From: Endotrypanum monterogeii
Lineage: Eukaryota; Euglenozoa; Kinetoplastea; Trypanosomatida; Trypanosomatidae
DNA: 64,000 bases
NCBI GenBank assembly: GCA_000333855.2
Contig: CM007320.1
Location: forward strand, 102,620-166,619
Direction: 5' to 3'
In this document: piece by piece, positions 20,415-22,829 of the stretch
Layout: every line of letters begins with the position of its first letter
How positions within the stretch are numbered: position 1 is the stretch's first letter
Notes under the pieces: model-generated
What the model was told of the DNA's origin: nothing
The model's database searches: none
Seen by the model: the letters and a program-made list of their open reading frames with translations, nothing else
Made by a program: the position numbers and the translations under genes

Positions 20415-20454
<40 letters not shown>

Positions 20455-20529
20455 ACTGATGGAAAACCCCTGGAGGATGAAAGGAAGACGCCTCCACCGG
20501 GATGGATACCCCGCCCCATGGCCCGACCA
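17916..20529. other. Intergenic with AT microsatellites
   Basis: 2.6 kb between the helical-repeat gene and the Ser-rich gene. It holds A/T runs near 18028, 18107 and 18548, a C-rich patch (18790-18815), (AAAT)n grading to (AT)n at 19063-19101, and (AT)n at 20333-20353 and 20417-20451. The last of these marks the left edge of the duplicated unit described below. No supported gene. Confidence 0.55.
20417..20451. repeat. (AT)n microsatellite at left edge of duplicated unit
   Basis: About 17 AT units. The same kind of run lies at 22459-22477 and 22791-22826, each time at a junction of the about 2.0-kb repeated unit. AT runs are therefore the likely recombination or assembly breakpoints. Confidence 0.85.
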
Positions 20530-20690
20530 CTATAACAGCCCCACATTCTTCATATACATGCGAGACTCATAACTTCCATAGCCATCACTGAGCGAGTCAT
20601 CATTCACCGCAGAAGGTACGCGCGCTCCCCCATCGTACACGGGAGTGGCTCCACTTGCTACGCTTTCGGGATCGGCGAAGGCGCCCGATT
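20452..20690. repeat. Repeat A, copy 1 (239 bp)
   Basis: This covers the last 161 bp of the Ser-rich gene plus 78 bp of its 3' flank. It matches 22479-22717 in the same orientation and at the same length, with two differences (20642 G versus C, 20686 C versus G) found by direct comparison. It begins the first copy of a tandem unit. Confidence 0.95.
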
Positions 20691-22119
20691 TTCGGTGATT
20701 TCCAGTGCCGCTGTGGTTAGGACGCGCCCCCTGCGCATCGTGCATATCTGTGCCCTTAGCAGCCGCGCCTCCTCGCGCTTCGCCATGGTTGCTAGATGCT
20801 GCCACGCTACTGCTCACGGCAGGCGATAGTGTCTCCTCCCGATGAGACCTTGTCATCGGCGCATCCACTCCACTAACGGAGATTGAAGATGTGCGATTGG
20901 GGGCAGTGGTACTGGTAAGAGGCGGGGCTGCAGGTGCAGCTCGTCCAAGGGTTTGACGAGGCATCAATTCGGGTGGCATTCGGCGGTATGGTGGGACTGC
21001 GGCGTCAGCTGATGTGTAGAGAGAAGATGAGTTGTACGGAATCGCTGCAGCCGTAGGTGGGCTAACGACGGGCGGCTGGCGGCTTTGCGGCTGTGGTTGC
21101 TGGGACAGTGGTGGCTGTTGTGTGTCAAGCGAAGTAAGGCCACTCGAAAAGGAAGTCTGCACCGTGCCGCTGGCCATAGATACGTCCACTCTGGATTTCT
21201 GTCCTGCATCAGCCCAATTCGGCCGCAAGGTTGACGTAGGCAACTTGTTTACTGTAGTGGAGGAAGTTAGGAGGGGGTTCGCACGGCGGCCCAGCGTGCT
21301 CGTGTGCGAGGAAGTGCGACTGTGAGCTGCTCCGCCACTGGTAGATTGAAGAGAAGTGTTGTGTGGATCCCACGGCTGGGCCATCGAAGACTCTAAGGAG
21401 CGGCTGGTGCTTGCCACCGCGCTGCCGCCGCCCGCCCCGACAGTTTGCCGTCCTGTCTGCTCAGAGGGTGGGGTACAGGCACGCGAACCTTCCAATATGC
21501 TAGAGCCCCCGCGCTGCTGAAGGCCTTGCTCGCTGTATACGCTCGCCGGGGCAGAGCCGATGTGTCCTAAAGATGCTTCCCTCCCGCCGTCCGCTGGGGA
21601 AGAAGAAAAGAGTGGCGAGGGTTGGGGTTTTCTTGGAATGTTGCCACAACCACCGGCGGTGGTCTTGTTGCCAAAGAGTGGTGCTGTGGCGTTCATGGGA
21701 GCAAAAACACCGGCGGCGCCGTCACTAGAGGAGAAATGAAAACTCGGGTCGTCAGCTGTGGGGGGGCGCGTCTGTCGGATCAGACGCTCAAGAGCATTAA
21801 AACGATAATTTATCTGCTGCATCCACTCCGTCGCAGTATTAAGCTGCACCTGAATGGCCTGCTGCTGATGGTAAACTAACCGAAGCAGCATCCGATCCTG
21901 CTGTTTTAATGCCTCATCCTCCGCAACAGGGCCCCCAGTCGCATCGACGCGCGCGCCAGCTACGCCACCTTCGCCAACGTCTGCGTTTAATGTTGACCTG
22001 CCAACGTAAGAAAACATACCTGTGGCACTGCTAGTGGGCACTGAGTCCATGAACGGGTCGACAACTCCGCGTCGAAGGTAAACAGATTCGAGGCCACTGC
22101 CCACGCCTCCGGGAAACAT
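20530..22119 (-). CDS. Ser/Pro/Gln-rich hypothetical protein, tandem copy 1 (529 aa)
   Basis: I do not recognise this protein. Residues 1-60 are Gly/Val/Ser-rich. About 68-118 is the only clearly folded-looking part, a helix-rich stretch (QQDRMLLRLVYHQQQAIQ then INYRFNALERLIRQ) that may form a coiled coil or oligomerisation helix. The remaining 400 residues are low complexity (Ser, Thr, Pro, Gln, Ala) with no transmembrane segment. The protein ends in an aromatic/basic tail (YGSYESRMYMKNVGLL) that looks conserved, because it is intact in the second copy. ATG at 22119. A second copy begins immediately upstream and is mostly lost in an assembly gap. A scaffold or phospho-regulated role is conceivable, but no function can be given. 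Confidence 0.82.
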   Translation of the reverse strand: MFPGGVGSGLESVYLRRGVVDPFMDSVPTSSATGMFSYVGRSTLNADVGEGGVAGARVDATGGPVAEDEALKQQDRMLLRLVYHQQQAIQVQLNTATEWMQQINYRFNALERLIRQTRPPTADDPSFHFSSSDGAAGVFAPMNATAPLFGNKTTAGGCGNIPRKPQPSPLFSSSPADGGREASLGHIGSAPASVYSEQGLQQRGGSSILEGSRACTPPSEQTGRQTVGAGGGSAVASTSRSLESSMAQPWDPHNTSLQSTSGGAAHSRTSSHTSTLGRRANPLLTSSTTVNKLPTSTLRPNWADAGQKSRVDVSMASGTVQTSFSSGLTSLDTQQPPLSQQPQPQSRQPPVVSPPTAAAIPYNSSSLYTSADAAVPPYRRMPPELMPRQTLGRAAPAAPPLTSTTAPNRTSSISVSGVDAPMTRSHREETLSPAVSSSVAASSNHGEARGGAAAKGTDMHDAQGARPNHSGTGNHRKSGAFADPESVASGATPVYDGGARVPSAVNDDSLSDGYGSYESRMYMKNVGLL

Positions 22120-22478
22120 CGAGCGGTCTCACCCCTTCGACTTTGCAGCCGAATATATGATGATGATCGATCGGAGTTGACCAGCACAAAAAAAAAAAAG
22201 TCTGCTTGTCTTGGTAGAAGCGGGGGCTGGAGGAGGAAGGGGGGAAAGCTCCGTACGGAAAAGGCGTGACGATGCTCCAGAGAAAACGCAGAGGAGGAGA
22301 ATACTTGACAGGACAGGCGGAGTCGAGCGATGGGGGAAAATATGAAGCAGCGGTAGCACACTATGAGCCCAATGTCCACACCCTAAGACATAAAAATAAA
22401 AAAATAAAGACGAACAAAGTCCTTTGATGCGAAATCTAGTCCGCAAGTGCTCGCATGTGCATATATATATATATATAG
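22120..22478. other. 5' region of the Ser-rich gene, copy 1
   Basis: Contains an A-run at 22188-22199 (a pyrimidine tract in the transcript), suited to drive trans-splicing of the 529-aa gene. It also contains the 65-bp repeat B at 22392-22456 and ends in an (AT)n run at 22459-22477. Confidence 0.6.
22392..22456. repeat. Repeat B, copy 1 (65 bp)
   Basis: Identical by direct comparison to 22728-22792, which begins right after the N gap. In the unit this segment lies at the far 5' end, so its second appearance marks the end of copy 2. Confidence 0.93.
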
Positions 22479-22717
22479 GGGACTGATGGAAAACCCCTGG
22501 AGGATGAAAGGAAGACGCCTCCACCGGGATGGATACCCCGCCCCATGGCCCGACCACTATAACAGCCCCACATTCTTCATATACATGCGAGACTCATAAC
22601 TTCCATAGCCATCACTGAGCGAGTCATCATTCACCGCAGAAGGTACGCGCGCTCCCCCATCGTACACGCGAGTGGCTCCACTTGCTACGCTTTCGGGATC
22701 GGCGAAGGCGCCGGATT
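22479..22717. repeat. Repeat A, copy 2 (239 bp)
   Basis: Same orientation as 20452-20690, displaced by 2027 bp, with two base differences. It is truncated on the right by the N gap, where copy 1 continues for about 1.7 kb before repeat B. Confidence 0.95.
22557..22717 (-). CDS. Partial second copy of the Ser-rich protein (C-terminal 53 aa)
   Basis: This encodes the last 53 residues of the protein at 20530-22119 in the same frame and stops at the same codon. One of the two base changes alters a Pro to Arg (ATPVYDG becomes ATRVYDG); the other is silent in a Ser codon. The reading frame is open up to the gap, so the copy may be a complete functional gene in the real chromosome. The 5' part is missing only because the assembly inserts ten Ns. 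The alternative is that this piece is a misplaced contig end of a second allele. Confidence 0.75.
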
Positions 22718-22727
22718 NNNNNNNNNN
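22718..22727. other. Assembly gap (10 N)
   Basis: Ten Ns join the two partial repeat copies. In copy 1 the equivalent interval (20691-22391) is 1701 bp, so the placeholder probably understates the true gap. Confidence 1.
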
Positions 22728-22787
22728 AAAAATAAAAAAATAAAGACGAACAAAGTCCTTTGATGCGAAATCTAGTCCGCAAGTGCT

Positions 22788-22792
<5 letters not shown>
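22728..22792. repeat. Repeat B, copy 2 (65 bp)
   Basis: Identical to 22392-22456 and followed by another (AT)n run (22791-22826), after which the sequence becomes unique. It is the 5' end of the second tandem unit. Confidence 0.93.

Positions 22793-22829
<37 letters not shown>

Follow-up and report, generated by a model that had tools for sequence, protein, structure and literature searches.

The question raised by this locus is whether the assembly of Endotrypanum monterogeii conceals a second copy of a gene behind a run of 10 N, or whether the repetition observed around that gap was produced by the assembly itself. The analysis was performed on a window, i.e. the whole stretch of 64,000 nucleotides corresponding to C36:102620-166619, of a genome of 30.7 Mb in 44 contigs. 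Coordinates are those of the window unless they are preceded by C36.

Organization of the repeated locus

The sequence comparison reproduced, in coordinates, letters and order, the two repeats of 239 bp and 65 bp that had been described in the earlier note on this DNA. The sequence at 22479-22717 repeats that at 20452-20690 over 239 bp, with exactly two substitutions between them (G at 20642 corresponds to C at 22669, and C at 20686 corresponds to G at 22713), and the 65 bp at 22728-22792 are identical to those at 22392-22456. Copy 1 of the unit delimited in this way occupies positions 20452-22456. The start of copy 2 is located at 22479-22717 and its end at 22728-22792, and they are separated by the 10 N (22718-22727), which are the sole N run in the 64 kb. 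The outer left border of the unit is a TA run at 20417-20451 (20417-20450, 34 bp, when delimited by a regular expression), and the outer right border is a TA run of 36 bp at 22791-22826. Both ends of the unit are duplicated, in sequence and head to tail, and the assembled sequence runs unbroken from the end of the unit into its start, as is expected of a tandem duplication; the gap sits between the copies, as is expected of a false duplication.

A search of the same 30.7-Mb genome with the DNA of positions 20417-22457 returned six matches, every one of them at the locus of the unit: the unit itself, the two partial repeats, which are far beyond chance (E-values of 1.7e-124 and 1.9e-25), and three TA-run matches. 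The missing middle of copy 2 was not found on any other contig in this search, and the possibility of a second copy elsewhere in the genome was rejected, as none was found. Additionally, nine N runs are present in C36:1-256000, a number too small for a rate to be given: three have 10 N each, and the others have 20, 432, 600, 4251, 6021 and 8806 N. Since a third of these runs have 10 N, this value looks like a minimum and not like a measured size, and the gap at 22718-22727 is probably a minimum-size placeholder.

Junction between the copies

The two copies are joined at 22457-22481 by the letters GTGC, a TA run of 16 bp, a single A and GGGG. The GTGC (22457-22460) comes after CTCGCAT, the TA run occupies positions 22461-22476, and the GGGG is located at 22478-22481, where copy 1 has GGG. 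At the outer right border of the unit, CTCGCAT is followed directly by the TA run, and at the outer left border the TA run is followed by GGG. At 16 bp, the run at the junction does not reach the length of either outer run (34 and 36 bp) and, with its GTGC and GGGG, the junction is not the plain fusion of the outer runs that a jump in the assembly graph would give. Since a false jump should give such a fusion and none is seen, the junction favours real molecules, unless read errors account for it. The junction words CTCGCATGTGCATATAT (searched exactly) and TATATATAGGGGACTGATGG (searched with up to two mismatches) have one occurrence each genome-wide, at the junction. A junction borrowed from another TA locus was rejected, because these half-junction words are present only once each in the genome.

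Among random pairs of positions 1.9-2.4 kb apart, both members were located in TA runs in 50 of 2,000,000 cases, the sampled sequence including the present locus. Because such pairs are rare, the TA runs were probably the joining sites. The outer borders carry only the 34- and 36-bp TA runs, and the unit is not bordered by homologous direct repeats of 200 bp or longer. In Leishmania, direct repeats recombine to give circles or tandem duplications, and the screen presented in that study considered repeats of at least 200 bp (PMC4028189). The present locus resembles the amplification described there in that a locus flanked by direct repeats undergoes tandem duplication or circularisation and a new junction is formed, and it differs in that the TA runs measure about 35 bp, as compared to repeats of at least 200 bp (PMC4028189). 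In view of this published threshold, microhomology or slippage would be the more likely route for TA runs of about 35 bp. The left and right runs were probably joined by unequal exchange or by microhomology-mediated repair, either of which could have left the hybrid TA junction.

The gene of the unit and its relatives

The unit carries one intact gene, located on the minus strand at 20530-22119, which encodes a conserved hypothetical protein of the Leishmaniinae of 529 aa. No Pfam family matched this protein, and a sequence search of the PDB gave no match at E-values up to 1. A protein search with it identified 15 relatives; its identity with the proteins of six Leishmania species is 58-62%, with that of Novymonas 53%, and with those of two Leptomonas 43-45%. 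The protein of copy 1 retains both the conserved helix region of its relatives and their C-terminal motif. The fold model has a mean pLDDT of 42.8, with 439 of the 529 residues below 50, and its confident part is mainly a long helix at residues 66-116. Based on this model, we propose that the protein is largely disordered and has one long conserved helix, and nothing further. Candidate trans-splice acceptors of copy 1 were identified by motif at 22137-22250 on the minus strand, where two pyrimidine tracts (22248-22229 and 22200-22188) are each followed by AG.

No second copy per species was found among the 15 relatives, which represent clusters at 90% identity in which near-identical copies could hide. 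One of the relatives, P0008 (L. donovani CGC20_29675), has 429 aa and is devoid of internal segments that are present in P0003 of the same species; perhaps false introns in the gene model account for its shortness.

An orthologue from Porcisia hertigi is absent from the 15 matches. When the C-terminal 200 residues served as query, in a search limited to proteins of about 110-350 aa, it was not found among 2842 candidates at an E-value of 0.001, and the orthologue may be unannotated or beyond the length limits of the search. As no orthologue was found, P. hertigi, the closest named relative, is unusable for polarising the variants between the copies. The protein of the neighbouring Sec1/Vps45 gene shares 90% identity with its counterpart in P. 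hertigi, 85% with the one in Leishmania mexicana and 84% with the one in Novymonas, which would place the genome within the Porcisia/Endotrypanum clade or close to it. The Vps45 of P. hertigi was found by protein search, unlike the orthologue of the gene at 20530-22119.

The visible part of the possible second copy

Of the gene in copy 2, the C-terminal part can be seen (22557-22717, minus strand); it comprises 53 codons including the stop, and its frame is open up to the gap, as had been stated before. The substitution at 20642 falls in codon 493, where copy 1 has CCC (Pro) and copy 2 has CGC (Arg), and that at 20686 falls in codon 478, where TCG and TCC are synonymous. Codon 493 was compared in an alignment of 10 of the 15 relatives; P0013-P0015 were not included, and P0007 and P0008, both of which have Arg by eye, were excluded as shortened entries from lineages already represented. 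In this alignment, Arg is present in eight of the 10 relatives and Phe in the two Leptomonas. The distribution suggests that Pro is the new state and that the Arg of copy 2 is the ancestral one. The residues of the Pro-to-Arg change given in the earlier note are correct, and its direction, from copy 1 to copy 2, is at odds with the relatives.

The coding part of copy 2 that is visible allows 468 single substitutions, seven of which give the residue of at least seven of the 10 relatives, so that a random error would rarely look like the change at codon 493; it is important to mention that this test was conceived only after the change had been noticed. The two differences are confined to the last 49 of the 239 bp before the gap, which would occur with a probability of about 0.04 if differences were uniformly distributed. 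The second difference is the fifth base from the end of the contig, and both are exchanges between G and C. We place moderate trust in the likeness of codon 493 to the relatives and little in the clustering of the differences near the gap.

Origin of the arrangement

We consider it slightly better than an even prospect that the locus contains a real head-to-tail tandem duplication, carried by at least one chromosome homologue and collapsed in the assembly, of a one-gene unit of about 2.03 kb. Tandem gene duplications that were collapsed in the assembly of L. major Friedlin have been described, e.g. LmjF.14.0850 and LmjF.15.0280 (PMC4746890), and a real duplication would accordingly be an ordinary kind of event. 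The locus is similar to these cases in that near-identical gene copies lie head to tail and the assembly kept approximately one of them; in contrast, the second copy was demonstrated there by PCR, whereas here a putative second copy is partly visible beside the gap (PMC4746890). With copies so nearly identical, the reads from the middle of copy 2 would have collapsed onto copy 1. The implied gap would then be 1701 - 2027 = -326 bp, for which a scaffolder would write its minimum, 10 N. The same arithmetic is equally given by a false duplication and does not discriminate between the two. Regarding the tandem repeat of about 2.03 kb that had been proposed to lie hidden here, the interpretation is partly supported: the geometry, the private letters of the junction and the relative-like Arg are in agreement with it, and the second copy may be complete and functional and the number of copies may be two.

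A false duplication would imply that the genome has one unit, that the left contig was wrongly extended from a TA run back into the start of the unit, that the right contig starts with an unmerged overlap of 65 bp, and that the two differences are contig-end errors or alleles. We regard this as possible, at a probability well short of even, and a real duplication as somewhat more likely. In vertebrate assemblies, false duplications typically lie across an assembly gap (PMC9516828), and the present locus resembles the false gene duplications treated there in having two near-identical partial copies that flank or adjoin a gap. The position of the two differences near the contig end and the lack of a second copy per species among the 15 relatives (clustered at 90% identity) also speak against a real duplication. 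The locus differs from those vertebrate cases in that the order of its segments needs a jump through a TA run and in that its junction has private letters (PMC9516828). This junction, which does not simply fuse the outer runs and whose half-words are found nowhere else in the genome, argues against an artefact of assembly. Additionally, the Arg shared by copy 2 and eight of the 10 relatives is unlikely as a random error, though an allele would suffice. In this regard, 74,038 SNPs were reported for P. deanei (PMC8004069), and heterozygosity of this type would be a source of variants if the present genome is of that kind.

Other gaps of the same contig are relevant to this point. The earlier note had held that a bare misassembly would not place both repeats in the correct order, which is too strong a statement, because an unmerged overlap of contig ends together with a wrong extension through a TA run produces this order as well, and, 45 kb away in C36, a gap of 10 N shows repeated, apparently unmerged ends. 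At this gap (C36:170402-170411, region 170030-170698), the sequence before the N recurs after them with 280 of 288 columns identical; five of the eight mismatched columns are gap columns, and the left end continues into a stretch of about 96 C. A contig overlap that was left unmerged and badly extended is the probable cause. At the 10-N gap at C36:239025 (region 238909-239034), the low-complexity C/T left flank repeats itself once at a C run (94.7% over 76 bp), resembling a looped extension. Each of the three 10-N gaps in C36:1-256000 therefore has a locally repeated sequence beside it, in one case of low complexity, which favours a false duplication. The self-comparison of C36:1-256000 gave 12 matches of at least 60 bp, and the inspection covered the nine that are less than 30 kb apart.

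Two other explanations appear very improbable. There could be an extrachromosomal circle or a mixed population, in which one chromosomal copy coexists with circular amplicons that contain the unit and close at the TA runs, and the junction of the circle would then have been assembled as a tandem junction. The same passage from unit end to unit start is expected in that case, and both circles and tandem duplications form between direct repeats in Leishmania (PMC4028189); the amplicons described in that study, however, arise where the repeats measure about 200 bp or more, as opposed to the TA runs of about 35 bp seen here, and no result singles out a circle. The duplication could also be real and partial, with a truncated copy 2, a truly short gap and a gene remnant of which 53 codons are visible, which is how a literal reading of the 10 N would have it. 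We give this very little weight, as 10 N is also the size of two other gaps in C36:1-256000 and looks like a placeholder, and as a few missing bases between non-repetitive edges would usually have been read through.

Under the preferred reading of a real tandem duplication, copy 2, if whole, would be transcribed ahead of copy 1 and in the same direction, on the minus strand. Judging by the motifs, the splice acceptor of the downstream copy 1 would cap the 3'UTR of copy 2 at about 200-330 nt. About 78 nt of this 3'UTR (about 95 nt with the TA run) would be common to copy 1, and it would mostly differ otherwise. The duplicate would thus have been given a new 3'UTR, which is a main regulatory part in kinetoplastids. 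A more specific proposal, which we advance as a speculation and consider rather unlikely as a whole, is that of a lineage-specific gene pair in the Porcisia/Endotrypanum clade that arose by joining at TA dinucleotide runs, in which the upstream copy has the older residue and a 3'UTR replaced except for its first 80 to 95 nt; the two copies could then differ in stage regulation, with proteins that are almost alike. If real, the locus would be a small, clean case of TA runs bordering a gene duplication in a kinetoplastid; if false, it would be a warning that, in this assembly, a gap of 10 N whose flanks are repeated should not be taken for a gene gain. In either case only one gene, for a hypothetical protein, is concerned.

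Chromosomal context

A subtelomeric repeat of 470 bp (99.6%) was observed at C36:4643-5112 and C36:20052-20521, the second copy of which ends exactly at the 432-N gap. C36 has 3,727,717 bases, exceeding most of the Leishmania contigs that bear the orthologue (about 2.5-2.9 Mb) and being similar in length to the P. hertigi contig that bears Vps45 (3,844,477 bases); either a chromosome fusion in the clade or a scaffolding choice could account for this size. The G+C content of the window (1-64000) is 50.3% by base counts, and the whole-genome values given in the literature are 56.00% for P. hertigi (PMC8515887) and 52.66% for E. monterogeii M907 (PMC10747355).
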